Shown piece after piece: positions 3 to 10,801 of a stretch of DNA of 64,000 nt (positions are counted from its first letter, which is position 1; the number at the start of each line of letters is the position of its first letter). The notes beneath the pieces are model-generated. The model was not told the DNA's origin. It saw nothing but the letters and a program-made list of their open reading frames with translations, and did not search any database. Location of the stretch: the NCBI GenBank assembly GCA_949949005.1, contig CATLHM010000010.1:1-64000 (forward strand). The letters are read 5' to 3'. The DNA is from an uncultured Lachnospiraceae bacterium. Its GTDB lineage: Bacteria > Bacillota > Clostridia > Lachnospirales > Lachnospiraceae. Position numbers and translations under genes: made by a program.

Positions 3-1583
3 GAGGCAGAGCAGTATATAGCAAAGCGCTCCGACTGGATTTTTGACAAAGAGTATATTGAAAAAGCCGTATCAGCATACAAGAATAATGTGGAGGAACG
101 GGCAGTTTTGCAGGAAATACTTGCAGATGCACGAAATCATGAGTTTGATGTTCTTCTTACCTATATGTCAGACAGGATAGGCAGGCAGGAGGAATACAGC
201 TTCTATGTAGCCACGCTCAACCAGTTGGGCATTGAGGTTTGGACGATTAAGGATGGACAGCTGAAAACAGAAGAACATATTGATAAGCTGTTAAACTATA
301 TCAGGTTCTGGCAGAATGAAGGGGAAAGCAAAAAGACCGGCATGCGTGTGAGGGATACGCAAAAAGAATTGGTAAAAGCCGGGAAGTTTGTAGGCGGCAA
401 AGCCCCATATGGCTATCATTTAGTCCCTTCCGGCATGGTCAGCAATCATGGAAGGTTACTTAAAAGACTGGAGATAGTGGAAGAAAAGGCGCAGATAGTC
501 AGACAGATATACAGTTTAGCAGTCCATCAGGGCATGGGATATGAAAAGATAGCAAAGGAACTAAATAATCAGGGCATTCCGGCAGTTACAACAGACAAGT
601 GGAAGGCAGGAACCATAAGGAGCATATTAACTAATCCGGTCTATATGGGGTATCTGGCATTGAACAGAAGGATAAATCATGGCGGATTTGTAAGTTTAGA
701 CAGAAGAGAATGGGTTTATTCAGAGAAGCAGATACCGGAGCTGGTGATTGTATCACAGCAGATATGGGAGAAAGCACAGGAAATCAGAGAGGCAAGAAAA
801 GACAGAATAGGCGCTTCTAAAAGGAAATCCTCAGAAGAATATGAGGCACAGTACAATGTCCCATTCACGACAAGAGGAAAGCTTGTACTGTCAGATTTGG
901 TTTACTGTGGATATTGTGGTAAAAGGCTAAAAAATGGAAGCTACTGTAACCATTGGACGACAAAATCAGGAGAAAAGAAAGCGGCCTATACCGGCAGATA
1001 TGTTTGCCCTTCCAAATGTAAGGAGCGTTCCTGCTATTCACAAAATTACTTAGAAGGAATCGTGTTTGAGGTGGTGGAAAGTTATATGGAACGTTTAAAG
1101 ACGGTAGATGTTATAAAGGAACTACAGACCATGCACAGCCAACAGAGAAAAAGTGTGGAAAGGGAGCTGGAAAGCATCTATAAAAAGCAAAAAACATTAA
1201 AGCTGGATATTCAGACATTAGAGGAAAAGATACCCGAAGCAATCAGAGGAGATTACTATTTCAGTGCGGAAAAGCTATCCACTATGATAGAAGAAAAAGA
1301 ACAGGAAAGTAAAGCATTAGATAAAAGAGCACAGCAGATAAAAAGCAAACTGTCACAGACAGCAGGGCAGAGCAGTGATATGGAAAGGTTTATCACCATG
1401 GTGCCAAACTGGAAAGAAGAATTTCAATCGGCAGATACACAGACAAAAAAAATGTTGCTTTCCTCTTTGATTGACAAAATAGAAGTAAAAGACGGGGATA
1501 TTAATATAAAATTTAAAATCCGTTTGGAAGATTTTCTTTTACCTGAAACTCCTTATTCCGGCGTACCGGAACAAAGGCTATAA
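3..1583 (+). CDS. Large serine recombinase (5' end outside the window)
   Basis: Site-specific recombinase of the large serine integrase/TnpX type, which cuts and rejoins DNA at att sites to move an integrative element. The frame is open from base 3, well upstream of the first possible start (GTG at 90), so the N-terminus with the catalytic serine lies off the left edge. Visible parts, numbered from base 90, are the end of the resolvase domain (YMSDRIGR, about residue 27), the Recombinase domain (GGKAPYGYHL, about 103), a zinc ribbon (CGYCGKRL with later CPSKC and C), a long coiled coil (about 345-420) and a short tail. The stop codon lies inside sequence that appears to belong to the neighbouring split gene, as expected when the recombinase gene sits at the end of its element. 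The family call is firm; the element type is inferred. Confidence 0.9.
   Translation, partial: EAEQYIAKRSDWIFDKEYIEKAVSAYKNNVEERAVLQEILADARNHEFDVLLTYMSDRIGRQEEYSFYVATLNQLGIEVWTIKDGQLKTEEHIDKLLNYIRFWQNEGESKKTGMRVRDTQKELVKAGKFVGGKAPYGYHLVPSGMVSNHGRLLKRLEIVEEKAQIVRQIYSLAVHQGMGYEKIAKELNNQGIPAVTTDKWKAGTIRSILTNPVYMGYLALNRRINHGGFVSLDRREWVYSEKQIPELVIVSQQIWEKAQEIREARKDRIGASKRKSSEEYEAQYNVPFTTRGKLVLSDLVYCGYCGKRLKNGSYCNHWTTKSGEKKAAYTGRYVCPSKCKERSCYSQNYLEGIVFEVVESYMERLKTVDVIKELQTMHSQQRKSVERELESIYKKQKTLKLDIQTLEEKIPEAIRGDYYFSAEKLSTMIEEKEQESKALDKRAQQIKSKLSQTAGQSSDMERFITMVPNWKEEFQSADTQTKKMLLSSLIDKIEVKDGDINIKFKIRLEDFLLPETPYSGVPEQRL
1540..1580. other. Probable element/chromosome junction (att site)
   Basis: The recombinase frame runs to 1583. 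In another frame, from about 1561 onward, the sequence already reads YRNKGYNFTITSSTAYDQ, which fits the interior of the SpoIID-like/peptidoglycan-binding family encoded downstream. The crossover should therefore lie at or just before about 1564. The core bases cannot be named because the other end of the element is outside the window. Confidence 0.55.
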
Positions 1584-3766: not shown

Positions 3767-3795
3767 TTGCGAATAGCTTCGGATGCGGTTATAAT
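3767..3795 (+). promoter_or_regulatory. Promoter of the DUF5717 module
   Basis: TTGCGA (3767-3772), 17-base spacer, perfect TATAAT (3790-3795). It overlaps the extreme TTG start of the longest frame (3764), which shows that translation must begin further down, at 3839. Confidence 0.75.
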
Positions 3796-3838
3796 AATAA
3801 CAGACAAAAGAGAGAAAACGGCCAAAGGAGCAGAAGTC

Positions 3839-6800
3839 GTGCAGGATGCAGCAGAAAAGATTTTAGAAGGAAAATTCAATGATAATGTTTACTCTCTGGA
3901 CTTTTCCAGTCCGGTGATTGAGCTTACGCTTTTTCCGGGGCAGGTCTATGAGGGAAGCTTTACTGTAACGGGGCCTGAGAGCGAGGTTACGGAAGGGGTT
4001 GTGTCCTCTACAAGGCTCAAAATGCAGTGCCTGACAAGCGAATTTTCCGGCCGCAGGGAAGAGATCGGCTACCGTTTTGACGCAGGCGGAATGGTGCAGG
4101 GGGATGTGCTTAAGGGCGAGTTTCGGATTATTTCCAATCATGGGGAGTATTTTGTTCCTTATGAAGTCACGATTGCCTTGGGGACGCTGGACTGCGGGCT
4201 GGGGGTGATCAAAAATCTCTTCCACTTTGCCAATCTGGCACGCTCTGACTGGGATGAGGCGGTTAAGCTTTTTTATTCCAAGGATTTTGAGCGGCTGTTT
4301 GTGGGGGTGGACAGACAATACTATGGAATCTACCGGGGGCTGGTGGGGAGCGATAAACGCCAGCAGAGTGTGGAGGAATTTCTCCTTGAGATACGAAAGA
4401 AGCAAAAGGTGGAATTCCTGCTGGAAGAGTCGGAGATCCTGATTGAGAATCCTGGCGGCAGGACGGAAAACAGGCTGGTGATCACCCGCAATGGCTGGGG
4501 GTATTCGGAGCTGCCGATAGAGCGGGAGGGAGATTTTATTGTCCTTGAAAAGGATGTGATCCGGGAGGAGGATTTCTTGGGGAATTCCTACCGGCTGCCT
4601 TTCTATATTGCGGTGGAGAAGCTTCATGCGGGCAAAAATTATGGCTATATCCGTTTAAATTATCCTTACGGCCCTCTGACGGCCAGGATTACGGTGGTCA
4701 ACAAGACCATAACCGCATCCCAGGTGACCGGCATCAGCAGGCAGAAGAAGTACAGACTTTTGGAGCTGATGCAATATTATGAGGCTTTCCGCACCAAAAA
4801 GATCAGCGCTGCTTCCTGGCTTAAGGAGACGGAAAGTTTGGCGGACGCCCTGATGCAGCTTGACCCCCATGAGATTTCGGCCAAACTGTTCAAGGCGCAG
4901 CTTCTGATCACCCAGGAGAAGTACTTTGAGGCGGAGGCGCTTTTAAAGCAGGCGGATGCAAAGATGGAAGAAAATTTCCGGCCGGAGCTCTATTCCTACT
5001 ATCTTTATCTGACCACCCTGATGAACCGGGAGGAAGAATATTTAGACCAGGTTTCCGGCGAGGTGGAGCGGATTTTTGCACAGAATACCGATAACTGGCG
5101 GATCGCCTGGCTGCTTTTGTATCTGATCGGGGATTATGCCAAAAGCCCTGCCCGGAAATGGATTTTTCTGGAAGAACAGTTCCGGCAGGGGTGCAGCAGT
5201 CCTGTGATCTATATTGAGGCGTGGAACTTGATCGCGGCTAACCCGGCCCTTCTTCTTCGGCTGGAGCCCTTTGAGATGCAGATCCTATCCTATGCCGCCA
5301 AGAAAGAGCTGATCACTGCGGAGGTTATCATACAGATTGTTTACCTGGCTCAGAAGGCAAAGTCCTACTCCGGCAGGCTATTTGAGATTTTGAAGGCCTG
5401 CTATCAGGCATCGCCCACGGAGGAAGTGCTGCAGGCTATCTGCACGCTGCTGATCAAGGGAAACATCACCGGAAAGAAAGCGTTTGTCTGGTATGAAAAG
5501 GGAATCGAGAGGGAGCTTCGCATCACCAGGCTTTATGAGCATTATATGATGTCCTTGGATCTGAGCCAGGAGCTGTGGCAGGAGCGGGAAATCCCTAAGA
5601 TCGTGCTGATGTATTTTGCCTTTGACAGCAATCTTGACACCCTGCACAATTCCTACCTTTATGCTTATGTGTACCACAACCAGGCTCAGTTCCCGGAGCT
5701 GTACGAAAATTACCGGGAGCAGATCGAGCGGTTTGTGGTGTTTCAGATATTGAGAGGCAAGAGCAACCGGTATCTTGCCTACCTTTACAAAAACCTGGTG
5801 TCGCCTGTGATGCTCACCCAGGAGACCGCTGCAGGCCTGTCCAGCGTGTTGTTTATGCATCGCCTTAAGGTGGAGCGGGAGGATATACGCCGGGTGATCC
5901 TTGTCTACGAAAAGGAAAATCAGGAGACCATCTATCCCGTCACGGGCAGGGAAGTCTTCATCCCCATTTACGGAGGCGATCACCATCTGCTGTTGGAGGA
6001 CGCAAAGGGCTTTCGGTATGGCAGGGAGGAAGAGTATGTCTGCGAGCGGCTGCTGGCTGCGGAGGGACAGGCTGCTCTGGCAGCGCCCTATGTGACAGAT
6101 AACGTGCATTTCAACCTCTGGCTTTGCAGCGACAGCGGCCGTCTGGCAGGAGTTACCGAAGAAAACGCTGAGTATATGAAGCGGCTCTTGAAGGCTCCCG
6201 AGGTGATAGAAGAGATACAGCAGGAAGTCCGGATGCGGCTGTTGCAGTTTTATTATGACAATGACCGGATGACGGAGCTGGACGCCTTTCTGGAAGCCCT
6301 CTCCCCAAGGGAGGTGAAGGAGGACTGCCACACAAGGATTGTGCGGTTTATGGTACTCCGGGGCATGTATGAGAAGGCTTTTGAGTGGGTCAAGCTAAGA
6401 GGCGAGGAGGATATGGAAGCCAAGATCATCATGCGGCTTTGCAGCCGTATGATCACACTGGACGGCATGGTGGAGACGCCGGCCATGACCATACTGGTTT
6501 TCCGTGCTTTCCGTGCAGGAAAATACGATGAAAACCTGCTGGAATACCTGTGCCGGTTTTTCAGGGGAACCAGCAAGGAGATGCGGGATATCTGGAAGGC
6601 GGCGGAGGATTTCGGGATAGATACCTATGACCTTTCGGAGAGGATTCTTTTGCAGATGCTCTACACAGGGGCCTATATGGGGGAGCGGGCGGAAATTTTC
6701 AGGCGCTATGTGTCCGGGGGTGCAAGGACAGAGGTAGAACTGGCGGTTCTGGCTCAGTGCTCCTACGATTATTTTGTCAGGGATAAGCAGGCCGACGGCT

Positions 6801-7408
6801 TTTTATGGGAAGATTTGCTCAGAGCTGCCCAGCGGCAGGAGAAAATTCCCTTTGTGTGTAAGCTTGCTTTCACCAAATATTTTGCGGAACACAAAAAACA
6901 GGTAGACGAGCGCATTTCCCACTGTCTTCTTCCTTTTCTGCGGGAAATATTGGAGCAGAATAAATATTTTCCTTATTTTAAGGAGTACGCGGAGCATATT
7001 GTTTCCATGCGCCAGTTTATGGACAAGACCATGATACAATACCGGGTGAGCTCCGGAAATAAGGCTTATATCCACTATCTGCTGGAGCGGGAGAGCGGCC
7101 CGGAGGAATACAGCAAGGAAGAAATGCAGGATATGTTTGGCGGTATCTGTGTCAAGCAGTTTGTTCTTTTCTTTGGAGAACATTTGCAGTATTATATTAC
7201 AGAGGTGGAGGATGGCAAGGAGCATCTGACCGAGAGCGGCACCTTAAGCCGCAATGATGCGGGAGGGGAGCAGAGAGAAAACAGGTACACGCTGCTCAAC
7301 GATATTGCCATCGGCAGGAACCTTCACGATTACGGCACCATGGACAATCTCATGCGGGAATATTTTGAGCAGGAGTTTGTGGTCAGGGAATTGTTTCATA
7401 TTATATAA
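3839..7408 (+). CDS. DUF5717 family protein, first gene of a four-gene module
   Basis: Very large (1,189 residues) protein recognised as DUF5717, a Clostridia family without known function. The start is GTG 3839, with AAAGGAG 8 bases upstream and the promoter -10 box at 3790. The first ~270 residues look beta-rich (LDFSSPVIELTLFPGQVYEG; GEFRIISNHGEYFVPYEV), like Ig-like or chaperone-type sandwiches. From about residue 310 to the end the sequence is almost entirely helical, with repeat-like helix pairs suggesting a TPR-type solenoid. No signal peptide or membrane segment is seen. The next gene starts 15 bases after the stop and encodes an Hsp70-like protein, and two more follow closely. I infer a scaffold or client-binding role, with no direct proof. 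Confidence 0.8.
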   Translation: MQDAAEKILEGKFNDNVYSLDFSSPVIELTLFPGQVYEGSFTVTGPESEVTEGVVSSTRLKMQCLTSEFSGRREEIGYRFDAGGMVQGDVLKGEFRIISNHGEYFVPYEVTIALGTLDCGLGVIKNLFHFANLARSDWDEAVKLFYSKDFERLFVGVDRQYYGIYRGLVGSDKRQQSVEEFLLEIRKKQKVEFLLEESEILIENPGGRTENRLVITRNGWGYSELPIEREGDFIVLEKDVIREEDFLGNSYRLPFYIAVEKLHAGKNYGYIRLNYPYGPLTARITVVNKTITASQVTGISRQKKYRLLELMQYYEAFRTKKISAASWLKETESLADALMQLDPHEISAKLFKAQLLITQEKYFEAEALLKQADAKMEENFRPELYSYYLYLTTLMNREEEYLDQVSGEVERIFAQNTDNWRIAWLLLYLIGDYAKSPARKWIFLEEQFRQGCSSPVIYIEAWNLIAANPALLLRLEPFEMQILSYAAKKELITAEVIIQIVYLAQKAKSYSGRLFEILKACYQASPTEEVLQAICTLLIKGNITGKKAFVWYEKGIERELRITRLYEHYMMSLDLSQELWQEREIPKIVLMYFAFDSNLDTLHNSYLYAYVYHNQAQFPELYENYREQIERFVVFQILRGKSNRYLAYLYKNLVSPVMLTQETAAGLSSVLFMHRLKVEREDIRRVILVYEKENQETIYPVTGREVFIPIYGGDHHLLLEDAKGFRYGREEEYVCERLLAAEGQAALAAPYVTDNVHFNLWLCSDSGRLAGVTEENAEYMKRLLKAPEVIEEIQQEVRMRLLQFYYDNDRMTELDAFLEALSPREVKEDCHTRIVRFMVLRGMYEKAFEWVKLRGEEDMEAKIIMRLCSRMITLDGMVETPAMTILVFRAFRAGKYDENLLEYLCRFFRGTSKEMRDIWKAAEDFGIDTYDLSERILLQMLYTGAYMGERAEIFRRYVSGGARTEVELAVLAQCSYDYFVRDKQADGFLWEDLLRAAQRQEKIPFVCKLAFTKYFAEHKKQVDERISHCLLPFLREILEQNKYFPYFKEYAEHIVSMRQFMDKTMIQYRVSSGNKAYIHYLLERESGPEEYSKEEMQDMFGGICVKQFVLFFGEHLQYYITEVEDGKEHLTESGTLSRNDAGGEQRENRYTLLNDIAIGRNLHDYGTMDNLMREYFEQEFVVRELFHII

Positions 7409-7423
7409 AGGGGTAAAAGAGCA

Positions 7424-8731
7424 ATGTTCCAGAACCCAAAAGACGCAGGCAGAAAAAATATCAGAAAAGTTGTAGTGGGCTACGATCTTGGGCGGGAGAA
7501 TGCCCAGATCAGTTACTGCGGCCTGGACGAGTCGGAGCCGGAAACCGTCTCGGCTGTGGCCGGAGGGGAGCAGTATAACATCCCCATGGCTCTGTGTAAA
7601 AGAAAGGGCGTGGGCCAGTGGTACTACGGAAAGGAAGCCATTAAGTTTGCCAGGGAGGGTGACGGCATTCTGGTGGAAGACCTTCTGACTCTTGCACAGC
7701 GGGGAGAGGATGTGCTGGTGGAGGGGGAGGCCTACGACCCGGCGGCCCTTCTTACCCTGTTTGTCAAAAGAAGCCTTTCCCTTTTGAATATCCGGGTCTC
7801 CTTAAGCCAGATCGAAGCCTTTATGTTTACGGTGGAGGAGCTTACCCCGCGGATGGTGGATGTGCTGGGGAAGGTGGCTGTGGGGTTGCAGCTTCGGGGT
7901 GCCCATGTGAGCTTCCAGAGCCATCTGGAAAGTTTCTATGCCTACACCCTCCATCAGGGAAAAGAGCTGTGGATGAACGATGTGATGATTTTTGAATATA
8001 ATGAGTTTTTGAAGGTACTGCGGCTTACCTGTAACAGAAATACTACCCCCAAGGTGGTGTTTATCGACGAGGTAAGGCGCCCGGAGATGGTTCGCAGAAC
8101 CTGGCGGGAAGAGCCTGAAATGAAGCAGCAGCAGATGACAGAGCTGGATCTTATGTTTCTCCATCTGGCAGGGGATTGTCTGGAAGGGAAGACGGTTTCC
8201 AGCATTTATTTGCTGGGGGAGGGCTTTAAGGAGGATTGGGCAAGGGAATCCCTGAAATTTCTCTGCAAAAACCGGAGAGTGTTCCGGGGAAATAATCTCT
8301 ACAGCAAAGGCGCTTGCTACGGGATGAGGGAACGTACCCAGCCCAGTAAGGAATGGAAGGAATACGTTTACCTGGGAGCCGATAAGCTGAAGTCCAATAT
8401 CGGCATGAGGGCTCTGCGTTGCGGGGAGGATTCCTATTACGCCATTTTGGATGCGGGAAATAACTGGTATGAGTCCTCAGCGGAGTTTGATATTATTCTG
8501 GAAGACGGAAATACAGTGGAATTTGTGATTACGCCGCTGACCGGCGAGAATGTGAGCAGCCGTCTGATCACTTTAGAGGGGCTTCCGGGACGGCCTCCAA
8601 GGACTACCAGACTAAACATACAGATTGAGATGTCCGCCGTGAACCAGGCGGTGGTGACGGTGACGGATATGGGCTTCGGGGAAATCTTTAAACCCAGCGG
8701 GAAGGCATGGAACCAGACCATCACGGTCTGA
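7424..8731 (+). CDS. DUF5716 family, Hsp70/actin-like protein
   Basis: 435 residues. The N-terminus has a phosphate-1-like strand-turn (VVVGYDLGRENAQISY, about residues 13-28). Near residues 263-310, YLLGEGF followed by YSKGACYGM resembles the adenosine-site motifs of Hsp70 and actin relatives. The last ~90 residues are beta-rich (TTRLNIQIEMSAVNQAVVTV) and look like a small Hsp70 substrate-binding sandwich. The phosphate-2 position (KVVFIDEVRRPE) lacks the usual glycines, so ATPase activity may be weak or absent. It lies second in the DUF5717 module, 15 bases after the first gene and 29 bases before the third. The DUF5716 name comes from family recognition; the Hsp70 likeness is my reading of motifs. 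Confidence 0.75.
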   Translation: MFQNPKDAGRKNIRKVVVGYDLGRENAQISYCGLDESEPETVSAVAGGEQYNIPMALCKRKGVGQWYYGKEAIKFAREGDGILVEDLLTLAQRGEDVLVEGEAYDPAALLTLFVKRSLSLLNIRVSLSQIEAFMFTVEELTPRMVDVLGKVAVGLQLRGAHVSFQSHLESFYAYTLHQGKELWMNDVMIFEYNEFLKVLRLTCNRNTTPKVVFIDEVRRPEMVRRTWREEPEMKQQQMTELDLMFLHLAGDCLEGKTVSSIYLLGEGFKEDWARESLKFLCKNRRVFRGNNLYSKGACYGMRERTQPSKEWKEYVYLGADKLKSNIGMRALRCGEDSYYAILDAGNNWYESSAEFDIILEDGNTVEFVITPLTGENVSSRLITLEGLPGRPPRTTRLNIQIEMSAVNQAVVTVTDMGFGEIFKPSGKAWNQTITV

Positions 8732-8760
8732 GAAGCCCAAAATACAGGAGAGGGAATTTT

Positions 8761-9594
8761 ATGGGCAGGATTTTGCTATGTACGGGGAAATATGCCGAGA
8801 ATCCATATTATATTGAGAGCCTGTGCGCCAATGTGTACTGTGTGGAGGAGCTTTGCTACCTTTTAGCCAGCAACCCCTTTATGATCAACCGCAGTATTAT
8901 GGATAAAAGGCTGGCGCTCTGGCTGGACGAGGAATGCGCCCTGGCAGATTTAAGCCATCAGCTTTTGAAGCTTTTCCACCGGGGCAGCCAGCCGGGGGTT
9001 TTTGTGAGCCTGATCCTTGATTATGTGAATTACGCTACCCCGGAGGAAAAAAAGAAGATCGAGGATGTGATCCAGAATAATGTGGGGCTTAACGAATATG
9101 AGCGGCGCAAGAAGCAGGCGGATTTTCTCCTGACCAACCGCAGGTTTGGGCCGGCCCTTTTGGAATACGATAATCTGGCAAGGGAGCTGCCGGAGGTGGA
9201 GAGCGCCCTTAAGCCTGCCGTTTACCATAATATGGGGGTGGCCTATGCCAATCTGTTTCATTTTGAGCTGGCGGCCAAGTATTTTAAGCGGGCTTATACC
9301 ATGAGCGGCCTGGAGGAATCGGGGATTCAATATCTCATGGCAAAAAGGCTTCAGCTTCACGAGACGGCCTACATATCCTTTCTGGCGCAGCACGGCGAGT
9401 ACTATGAACTCTCCCTCAAGGTGGAGAAGCTCACTCAGGCGGCCAGAGGGGAATTTGAGGCCACCCAGGAGAACAGGATGCTGACGGCGCTTAAGATTTA
9501 CAAGGAGGAGGGCAATGTGGCTTCCTATTACGAAGAGATTGACAAGATCATTGCCAAAAAGAAGGATGAATACCGGGAGCTGGTGGCAGAGTAG
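8761..9594 (+). CDS. TPR-like helical protein of the DUF5717 module
   Basis: 277 residues, not recognised by name. ATG 8761 is preferred over an in-frame start at 8707 because AGGAGAGGG lies 7 bases before it and the upstream start would overlap the previous gene. The middle (KPAVYHNMGVAYANLFHFE, then AAKYFKRAYTMSG) is a clear tetratricopeptide pair; the rest is helical with no signal peptide or membrane segment. The N-terminal half is rich in acidic and Cys residues. Position between the Hsp70-like and membrane coiled-coil genes suggests an adaptor in the same complex. Confidence 0.7.
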   Translation: MGRILLCTGKYAENPYYIESLCANVYCVEELCYLLASNPFMINRSIMDKRLALWLDEECALADLSHQLLKLFHRGSQPGVFVSLILDYVNYATPEEKKKIEDVIQNNVGLNEYERRKKQADFLLTNRRFGPALLEYDNLARELPEVESALKPAVYHNMGVAYANLFHFELAAKYFKRAYTMSGLEESGIQYLMAKRLQLHETAYISFLAQHGEYYELSLKVEKLTQAARGEFEATQENRMLTALKIYKEEGNVASYYEEIDKIIAKKKDEYRELVAE

Positions 9595-9616
9595 GAAATA
9601 GCAGGGGGCGAAATCT

Positions 9617-10801
9617 ATGGGATTTTTAAAAAAGCTGTTTAGAAGAAGAGAAGTAATCGAGGAGCCGGGTTATGAGCTCGAGGGCTGGGATGATGTCACC
9701 TATGAGAAAGAGGATTTTCAGATCGACGACGAGGAGGAGCGGGGGCAGTATGTAAGAGGCTGCCTGGAGCAGATCGCCGAGGCCTCAAAGGAGGTGGAGA
9801 ACCTTCAGTTTGAATACAATATGGTCACCTCTTACCTGAAAGATATGGAAGAGGTGGAAGCCCTGCCGGATAAGGAGAAGGCAAGGGTAAGGGAGCTGGC
9901 CAAAAAGCTAAACGACCTGGAGGAGAAACAGAGCGGCTATCAGGAGAGGGCCAAAAGGCTCAGCGACGATAAATACCGTCAGATGGAACGCATGGAGGAG
10001 GTCGCCCAGGAGGGCTATGACAAGCTCACCGAGGCGGAGGAGCAGCGTGACCTGATCAAGCGGGATCTGAGAAGGCTGGACGGGGAGAAAAATGCCTATA
10101 TTTACAGGAGGTCGGATTTGCAGCGGCTGATCGGGGACACCAGAACCATGACCATTATCTGTATCGTGGCAATGATCGTGTGCATCCTGCTTTTGCTCGT
10201 GCTGCAATTCGGTTTTCAGATGAATGCGAAGCTGGGGTATCTGGCGGTAGCCGCCATGGGAGCGGTAGCCATCACCCTCATTTTCATGAAGCATAACGAT
10301 GCGGTGAAGGAGCTGGCCCGGGTAGAAAATGGAATCGGCCGGATCATCAAGCTGCACAATGCTACCAAGATACGCTATGTCAACAATACCCGCCTTTTGG
10401 ATTATCTTTATCTGAAATACAATGTGACAAGTGCGGGAGAGTTTGGCAAGACCTGGCAGCAGTACCAGGAGGAAAAGGAAGAGCGGCTCAGCTTCCAGCA
10501 GGCCGAAAAGGAGCTGGATGAATCCCAGAAAGAACTGATCCGGATCCTTCGCAAATACCATGTGGAGGATCCCATGATCTGGCTGCACCAGACGGCGGCT
10601 CTTCTGGATAAGAAAGAAATGGTGGAAATCCGCCATAACCTGATTATCCGCCGTCAGTCCCTGCGCAGACGCATGGACTATAATAAAGAAGTGATGGCTG
10701 GCAAAGCCCAGGCACAGATCAAGGAGCTGGTGGAGGATTATCCCGAGTACGCCAAGGAGGTGCTAGGGGCTGTGGAGGAGTTTGAGAAGGAGTTTTCTTA
10801 A
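9617..10801 (+). CDS. Coiled-coil protein with a central membrane hairpin, last gene of the DUF5717 module
   Basis: 394 residues. It begins with a basic stretch (MGFLKKLFRRRE), then an acidic segment, then a coiled coil (about residues 50-165). Two membrane segments follow (about 178-200 and 207-225: IICIVAMIVCILLLLVLQF and LAVAAMGAVAITLIFM), then a second coiled coil to the end. Both long arms would face the same side of the membrane. It starts 22 bases after the previous gene, so it is very likely co-transcribed. It probably anchors the module to the membrane. No known family name comes to mind. Confidence 0.7.
   Translation: MGFLKKLFRRREVIEEPGYELEGWDDVTYEKEDFQIDDEEERGQYVRGCLEQIAEASKEVENLQFEYNMVTSYLKDMEEVEALPDKEKARVRELAKKLNDLEEKQSGYQERAKRLSDDKYRQMERMEEVAQEGYDKLTEAEEQRDLIKRDLRRLDGEKNAYIYRRSDLQRLIGDTRTMTIICIVAMIVCILLLLVLQFGFQMNAKLGYLAVAAMGAVAITLIFMKHNDAVKELARVENGIGRIIKLHNATKIRYVNNTRLLDYLYLKYNVTSAGEFGKTWQQYQEEKEERLSFQQAEKELDESQKELIRILRKYHVEDPMIWLHQTAALLDKKEMVEIRHNLIIRRQSLRRRMDYNKEVMAGKAQAQIKELVEDYPEYAKEVLGAVEEFEKEFS

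Follow-up and report, generated by a model that had tools for sequence, protein, structure and literature searches.

A four-gene DUF5717/DUF5716 locus of a Lachnospiraceae bacterium as an apparent reduced form of a multi-Hsp70 operon

Described Hsp70-like systems and the locus

DnaK and a small number of paralogs have been the basis of most work on bacterial Hsp70 proteins. The accessible part of PMC8476630 describes Ssz1 as an atypical Hsp70 of the eukaryotic ribosome-associated complex, where it pairs with the J-domain protein Zuo1 at the ribosome. The GTPase-centric GAP1-N2 neighbourhoods are reported to contain an Hsp70, a GrpE, a second Hsp70 without the peptide-binding domain, and FNIII repeats joined to TPR or DnaJ; neither DUF5717 nor DUF5716 is named in the accessible part of that source (PMC7159879). 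The CoCoNuT systems, as portrayed in the accessible part of PMC11090510, have McrB-type GTPases and McrC homologs at their centre. Their type III CnuD is a degenerate Hsp70-like NBD/SBD protein that its authors think binds ATP and hardly hydrolyses it, and vWA, Ig-like, HEAT-like and coiled-coil parts occur alongside it; RNA binding has been put forward for CnuD as an alternative. The multi-Hsp70 operon that we report below is apparently undescribed. Neither a description of such an operon nor a relevant description of DUF5717 or DUF5716 was found in the PMC literature, which leaves subscription papers mostly outside its scope, so that absence from it is not proof.

The DNA that we analysed is a stretch of 64,000 nucleotides from an uncultured Lachnospiraceae bacterium (henceforth the window). 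A sequence-only reading had proposed that four closely spaced genes behind one promoter encode an Hsp70-based membrane complex, either chaperone-like or cytoskeletal. The gene arrangement stands (Table 1): the four ORFs are intact, lie on one strand and are separated by 15, 29 and 22 bases. Homologs back the GTG start of the DUF5717 gene at 3839, and with it the proposed length of 1,189 residues, as well as the ATG start of the TPR gene at 8761. The promoter is less secure. A site does precede the genes, but it proves nothing alone because the scan found 13 such sites against 6.3 expected from shuffles.

Table 1. Features of the locus, in window coordinates
Feature	Description	Position	Strand	Basis
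Promoter-like site	TTGCGA, 17 bases, TATAAT	3767..3795	+	consensus scan alone, 10/12
DUF5717 scaffold	1189 aa; a pair of Ig-like (PapD/MSP/ASH-type) domains at the N-terminus, then a helical solenoid bearing two more beta domains	3839..7408	+	
DUF5716 pseudo-Hsp70	435 aa; NBD without subdomain IIB, SBD-beta present, lid absent	7424..8731	+	
TPR partner	277 aa; conserved non-TPR N-terminal motif	8761..9594	+	weak TPR matches; alignment to full-operon TPR proteins; 21/21 other family loci
Coiled-coil protein	394 aa; membrane hairpin at ~171-226; likely membrane anchor	9617..10801	+	hydropathy; alignment to counterparts in operons of other families

The DUF5717 protein matches PF18984 (1012 bits) and PF18983 (355 bits). 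Its AF2 model (pLDDT 85.0, pTM 0.53) agrees with the beta-rich front and helical solenoid that had been read from the sequence, placing the two Ig-like domains ahead of the solenoid and its two further beta domains. The matches listed in a fold search with this protein cover single domains or repeats, and none of them spans the whole length.

A multi-Hsp70 operon and its reduced form

Among 196 genomes of the order, 94 carry either Pfam family and 88 carry both DUF5717 and DUF5716. The set is present in all 22 genomes of the window's family, and at the 21 other loci of the family the DUF5717, DUF5716 and TPR genes always follow the same order on one strand. The genes therefore do not occur independently. 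The co-occurrence on which the proposed complex was to be checked is borne out for these genes, but not strictly for the coiled-coil membrane gene, which was found in 17 of the 22 family genomes (window counted) and was rejected as a strict member of the set. Membrane tethering is thus not universal, since that gene was not found in the remaining 5. The neighbours of the loci offered no stable functional partner gene. At L041 and L043 the locus is followed by genes that cluster with the pur-like genes of the window, and 8 of the first 20 loci have a divergent aminotransferase cluster upstream (2 checked by Pfam); we read both as unrelated.

Outside the window's family the operon runs in the order DUF5717, Hsp70-A, GrpE-domain protein, DUF5716 pseudo-Hsp70, Hsp70-B, Hsp70-vWA fusion, TPR protein and sometimes a membrane coiled-coil protein. 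The genes for Hsp70-A, GrpE, DUF5716, Hsp70-B and vWA are all present at 38 of the 58 loci outside the family, with identical order and strand in 38/38, and the 30 loci that are complete from DUF5717 to TPR are all in order (30/30). For one full operon, Pfam reported HSP70 three times (E 5e-76, 7e-63 and 4.5e-96), VWA (2e-10), GrpE (3e-13) and DUF5716_C (1.5e-26). The third gene passes PF01025 in three members (50.2, 43.9 and 37.6 bits, cut-off 25.8), and a profile of its product, mostly 560-650 aa long with the GrpE domain at its end, matches the solved GrpE 4ani (E 4e-5). A separate housekeeping dnaK-grpE-dnaJ is also kept in the full-operon genomes checked; the 8 such genomes among 15 checked have two GrpE matches, one housekeeping and one from the operon. 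The operon proteins scanned contained no J domain, and none turned up at operon coordinates in 15 genomes. At the family's own 21 loci no gene for Hsp70-A, Hsp70-B, Hsp70-vWA or the GrpE-domain protein was found.

In a quick tree, which flags the DUF5716 rows as long branches, window-type DUF5716 is nested in the full-operon type and adjoins G003 (SH-aLRT 99), DUF5716 groups with Hsp70-B (100), and all operon Hsp70s stand apart from DnaK (99). Since the window's DUF5716 falls inside the full-operon pseudo-Hsp70s, the window would represent a reduced form from which the ATP-driven parts are missing. At the level of sequence comparison, it is shown to be a reduced, family-specific form of an operon that encodes a multi-Hsp70 set elsewhere in the order. 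As a side observation, one of the 80 loci, in a Defluviitaleaceae MAG, appears to be a real relative at 60% identity; the other matches listed lie at 32-36%.

Full operons also bear on the smaller partners. Pfam matches for the TPR protein of the window fall below the cut-off; in clustering, however, the gene joins unmistakable TPR proteins from full operons, and its product aligns with those of 382-390 aa, which bears out the sequence-only assignment. Hydropathy gives the window's coiled-coil protein a single hydrophobic hairpin, as had been noticed, and membrane hairpin-like segments recur in 25/25 coiled-coil members scored. Recognised homologs of it occur in only some full operons; in others a different membrane gene lies upstream, with hydrophobic segments in 12/12 scored.

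The nucleotide site of the DUF5716 pseudo-Hsp70

The DUF5716 protein of the window matches PF18980 (356 bits, residues 133-434), the one family reported for it, and gave no match to PF00012 even at E 10. Its Hsp70 fold, an actin-like NBD with SBD-beta, is taken from a model of the G003 ortholog, which is 26% identical to the window protein and was modelled in its place. This model agrees with the Hsp70-like protein with a beta-rich C-terminal domain that had been proposed, and the fold check suggested for it found the fold. The alpha-helical lid (SBD-alpha) is absent: the ortholog model ends in strands, and window-type proteins, with 169-181 residues after the adenosine motif, are no longer than the ortholog there.

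We compared the catalytic motifs across 22 window-type sequences (the window, 20 of the 21 other family genomes, and that of G167), 51 DUF5716 proteins from full operons, and the operon Hsp70s. The phosphate-2 motif GGGT is present in Hsp70-A (46/46) and Hsp70-B (45/45) and in none of the window-type (0/22) or full-operon (0/51) DUF5716 proteins; it is likewise absent from the DUF5716 frame of G028. The catalytic Glu column holds Glu in all 46 Hsp70-A and all 45 Hsp70-B proteins, in 7/51 full-operon DUF5716 and in 0/22 of the window type, of which one (1/22) has Thr at the catalytic Thr column. The IIB stretch measures 107-109 residues in Hsp70-B and 94-116 in full-operon DUF5716 but 28-45 in the window type; at 39 residues, the window protein does not qualify as having Hsp70 subdomain IIB. 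Alignment thus shows the DUF5716 of the window's family to have lost both the ATPase signature and NBD subdomain IIB. A strict tie between the loss of GrpE and that of IIB was considered and dropped, being broken by G016, which has only the housekeeping GrpE and keeps IIB. The phosphate-1 Asp (21/22) and the adenosine-site G-x-G (19/22) persist in the window type and CnuD is thought to bind ATP, so DUF5716 may still bind nucleotide.

These results bear on two readings of the locus. Hsp70 and actin have a common ATPase fold, and nothing beyond this favours a cytoskeletal machine in which the actin-like fold of DUF5716 polymerises. The protein retains the Hsp70-specific SBD-beta, its listed fold matches are Hsp70-type proteins, and it is without IIB, which actin-type filaments use; we find this part of the sequence-only reading very improbable. 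We also consider it improbable that DUF5716 works as an ATPase in the manner of Hsp70 and that the four genes encode a membrane chaperone machine driven by ATP, given the motif losses in all 22 sequences, the deleted IIB, the missing PF00012 match and the absence of a GrpE gene from the locus, even though the fold is that of Hsp70 and homologous operons encode Hsp70s and a GrpE domain. Of the proposed Hsp70-based membrane complex, the fold, the shared travel of the genes, the hairpin partner and the Hsp70 and GrpE genes of homologous operons stand; an ATP-driven Hsp70 in the window does not, because the one protein there with the Hsp70 fold no longer has the ATPase signature and IIB.

Possible role and relation to described systems

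Taking the evidence together, we lean towards a reduced operon whose products, derived from a multi-Hsp70 machine, form a scaffold or holdase that is tethered to the membrane and built around a pseudo-Hsp70. DUF5717, DUF5716 and the TPR protein would form a complex that the coiled-coil hairpin protein tethers to the membrane on its inner face. Through SBD-beta, DUF5716 may act as a clamp or interaction module that does not depend on nucleotide, with DUF5717 providing the platform and the TPR protein acting as adaptor; the whole would then be a holdase, or a scaffold for assembly, that serves particular clients. Where the operon is full, Hsp70-A, Hsp70-B and Hsp70-vWA together with a dedicated exchange factor would cycle the same core; in the window's lineage this ATP-driven engine would have been lost, or housekeeping DnaK would have taken over. 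A bolder version, which we hold only tentatively, is an order-specific machine (Hsp70-A, Hsp70-B, Hsp70-vWA fusion, pseudo-Hsp70, a dedicated putative GrpE-type exchange factor and a giant Ig/solenoid scaffold) that may serve one membrane process, its whole engine shed in the window's family to leave a non-enzymatic pseudo-chaperone scaffold.

The process served might be motility, with the set helping motile species to assemble, anchor or supply their flagella or some other machine of the envelope. Flagellin_N occurs in 84/94 carriers and 53/102 non-carriers (Fisher p 9e-9), and in 65/72 against 53/102 once the window's family is left out (p 6e-8), a statistic that ignores kinship in both cases. 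Spo0A shows no such link (70/94 carriers, 78/102 non-carriers), and a link to sporulation was rejected on that ground. In family f11 all 4 carriers have flagellin, as does only G054 among the 16 non-carriers listed, marginally (E 7.5e-4), and in G180 flagellin lies ~15 kb from the operon on the same contig. However, the enrichment is confounded by kinship, 10 carriers have no flagellin, 3 of them 99-100% complete (G102, G110 and G173), and in family f22 flagellin is found in 9 carriers and 10 listed non-carriers alike. No flagellar family was seen among the subset of neighbours scanned, and we judge a motility-linked complex unlikely.

An operon that brings together four proteins of the Hsp70 fold, one of them fused to vWA, with a GrpE-type protein of its own, and that keeps its gene order in many families of a single order, would constitute a new chaperone architecture. 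In the window's family this machine occurs minus its engine, a natural experiment in which the role of the pseudo-Hsp70 core can be examined by itself. If the scaffold reading is true, a chaperone machine has turned into a non-enzymatic complex in this family, and DUF5716 and DUF5717, Pfam families of unknown function, acquire a testable role along with a fold and an evolutionary origin.

A role in conflict or defence, with the GAP1-N2 or CoCoNuT systems as relatives, is suggested by the common parts list (Hsp70-like, vWA, Ig-like and helical-repeat) in the accessible parts of PMC7159879 and PMC11090510. We tried and rejected this explanation, which has little probability. The GTPase, McrB/McrC, tubulin, kinase and J domain are all absent from the operon proteins scanned, and PADLOC gave weak or partial matches only (PDC-M61B for two Hsp70s; PrimPol and PDC-M71B for the TPR protein; LmuB for the coiled-coil protein, at 6e-4). 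Presence in 22/22 family genomes and an empty plasmid search are also unlike mobile defence genes. CnuD is likened to DUF5716 by description only, from the accessible part of PMC11090510, and the McrB-type GTPase and McrC homolog of its surroundings, neither found in the operon proteins scanned, set CoCoNuT apart from the operon.

The membrane-tethered scaffold that we favour can be placed among other known proteins. The N-terminal Ig-like domains of DUF5717 have the same fold as those of the ASH/MSP/PapD-like scaffolds HYDIN and CEP192, a resemblance of fold only, and an alpha-solenoid then follows. Unlike Ssz1, the window's DUF5716 belongs to a type that has lost IIB and has no ribosome link here, nor was a paired J-domain protein found for the operon. 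Full operons resemble the DnaK-DnaJ-GrpE machine in that they encode a GrpE domain and Hsp70s whose motifs are intact, but they combine three Hsp70s, one of them vWA-fused, with one pseudo-Hsp70, a J protein was not found, and they are separate from the housekeeping genes. The GTPase family of the GAP1-N2 systems is absent from the L033 operon proteins and the further members scanned. Whereas the second Hsp70 of those systems, in the accessible part of PMC7159879, loses the peptide-binding domain, DUF5716 keeps SBD-beta and loses the catalytic motifs.

The four-gene set and the full operon

The four ORFs of the window are intact and share a common strand. Comparison with homologs set the starts of the DUF5717 and TPR genes, the former giving the 1189-residue product of the sequence-only reading, and the one membrane hairpin proposed for the fourth product is present. 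Pfam identifies the first two genes as DUF5717 and DUF5716. The third, also read as a TPR protein, has weak TPR matches of its own but groups with proteins from homologous operons whose TPR matches are strong. The suggested promoter exists as a 10/12 consensus match, but it is not evidence by itself because similar sites are twice as frequent in the region as expected. Reading off the ORFs, we take the downstream genes to be purC, purB, purF and rho. The gene just upstream of the four encodes a large serine recombinase that has a Resolvase domain, a Recombinase domain and a weak match to a zinc ribbon, and it likely belongs to a mobile element.

Coordinates of the features discussed
Feature	Sequence	Position	Strand	Detail
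Four-gene set	window	3839..10801	+	
DUF5717 gene start	window	GTG 3839	+	
TPR gene start	window	ATG 8761	+	
Serine recombinase	window	3-1583		
Split genes of G003	L035	3205-6384		
Two-gene module	L200	1240-5968		Hsp70 564-566 aa, TPR protein 1008-1024 aa (both loci)
Two-gene module	L201	3355-8120		

The proposed neighbourhood survey bore out co-occurrence: DUF5716_C or DUF5717 was found in 94 of 196 genomes of the order (carriers), both in 88, and both in 22/22 genomes of the window's family. Outside that family we retrieved 58 loci from 54 of 72 carrier genomes. Hsp70-A, a GrpE-domain protein, DUF5716, Hsp70-B and an Hsp70-vWA fusion are all present in 38 loci, with identical order and strand in 38/38; the 30 loci complete from DUF5717 to TPR are all ordered. 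In the remaining 20, the locus runs into a contig or fetch boundary, is divided among separate places or is missing genes (L038, L046, L049 and L159 are examples). Pfam matches in one complete genome are HSP70 (5e-76), GrpE (3e-13), DUF5716_C (1.5e-26) with HSP70 (1.4e-17), HSP70 (7e-63), HSP70 (4.5e-96) with VWA (1.9e-10), and TPR. All 40 vWA fusions >600 aa found in these loci keep a metal-site-like D-T/S-T-G/S-S-M motif. DUF5717 is split in many loci (N part ~390 aa, main part ~900 aa). In full-operon genome G003 the vWA-Hsp70 gene is broken into two ORFs, as is the TPR gene, through decay or assembly error.

DUF5717_N occurs in 5 of 398 genomes of a phylum sample and DUF5717 in 10 of 291 of a class sample, all matches falling in the window's family. 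The full operons of this analysis come from the same order only; one relative, a Defluviitaleaceae MAG, points to Lachnospirales as that order.

DUF5716 as a predicted pseudo-Hsp70

Judged from its motifs, DUF5716 is a predicted pseudo-Hsp70. In one joint alignment (164 sequences), GTTN or GTTH, the catalytic Glu-Pro and GGGT are all kept in Hsp70-A (46/46) and Hsp70-B (45/45). GGGT occurs in 0/51 full-operon DUF5716 sequences and 0/22 of the reduced window type (the window, 20 of 21 other family genomes, and G167); the respective counts are 7/51 and 0/22 for the catalytic Glu, and 0/51 and 1/22 for the catalytic Thr. The Hsp70-like character claimed for DUF5716 holds in its fold but not in these motifs. 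The stretch with NBD subdomain IIB measures 140-143 residues in Hsp70-A and 107-109 in Hsp70-B. For DUF5716 the range is 94-116 in full operons and 28-45 in the window type, the window's own protein having 39. According to an excerpt of PMC10825016, exchange factors, GrpE included, work by moving this subdomain. In the window's family DUF5716 lacks IIB and the locus lacks a GrpE gene; the link is not strict, because genome G016 has only housekeeping GrpE yet keeps IIB.

In a quick tree (84 Hsp70-fold rows, with housekeeping DnaK as the root), the operon Hsp70s all group together (SH-aLRT 99) and DUF5716 groups with Hsp70-B (100), on long branches of which the tree's own output warns. The window type (100) is nested within full-operon DUF5716, beside G003 (99), and loss in the window's lineage is therefore the simplest reading. 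Apparent stepwise decay of the full operon is seen in another family, f16 (L159 of G016, L038 of G076), and in G055: at its locus G016 has only the two DUF5717 parts and DUF5716, G076 lacks Hsp70-B, vWA and TPR, and G055 has short pieces. Genome G167 is labelled family f8, yet its locus L046 is of window-family type, reflecting contamination (5%) or transfer.

Housekeeping chaperones and pointers to function

We searched 15 genomes, 12 of them carriers and 3 non-carriers; dnaK and grpE lie apart from the operon in 14, and neither was matched in the window's genome, which is 59% complete. The eight full-operon genomes have exactly two GrpE matches each, the second within the operon; in G028, a genome of the window's family, a second match lies elsewhere, below the cut-off. 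No J-domain match lies at the operon in these 15. In a second set of 43, a single GrpE match is found in each of the 18 genomes from the window's family, save G180 (where a 415-aa ORF elsewhere holds a second) and G134 (with a second below the cut-off). There is likewise one in G016, G033 and G086, and the other 22 have two or more. Five matches in G172 (7.7 Mb MAG), of which one lies in a 975-aa and another in a 746-aa ORF, suggest further GrpE-fusion genes. A separate two-gene module of the order sets an Hsp70 beside a TPR protein whose N-terminus has a weak J domain.

Flagellin_N is found in 84/94 carriers versus 53/102 non-carriers (p 9e-9, uncorrected for kinship), and Spo0A in 70/94 versus 78/102. 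The coiled-coil gene is absent from the three family genomes without flagellin (G102, G110, G173), which form one group in the tree (support 86), and also from two that have it. Both associations are leads, pointers to function and not evidence of it. In G180 (contig C79) a flagellin gene lies ~15 kb from the operon.

Comparison with known systems

The full operon's parts list is like that of GAP1-N2 Hsp70/GrpE neighbourhoods, in an excerpt of PMC7159879, and resembles that of CoCoNuT systems with their degenerate Hsp70-like CnuD, in part of PMC11090510. The latter likeness, as far as that part goes, slightly raised our low estimate for a conflict system akin to either type, but no GTPase of either kind was found among the operon proteins scanned, and we consider such a system improbable. 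The same likeness marginally lowered our confidence in the best explanation, a membrane-tethered pseudo-Hsp70 scaffold that would descend from a multi-Hsp70 operon, which we still hold to be reasonably probable. The pseudo-Hsp70 is similar in fold to Ssz1, but no J partner for it was found in the operon. The window set is therefore not placed with GAP1-N2, CoCoNuT or Ssz1; we file it, on sequence grounds, as a putative reduced form of an Hsp70 operon of a new type.
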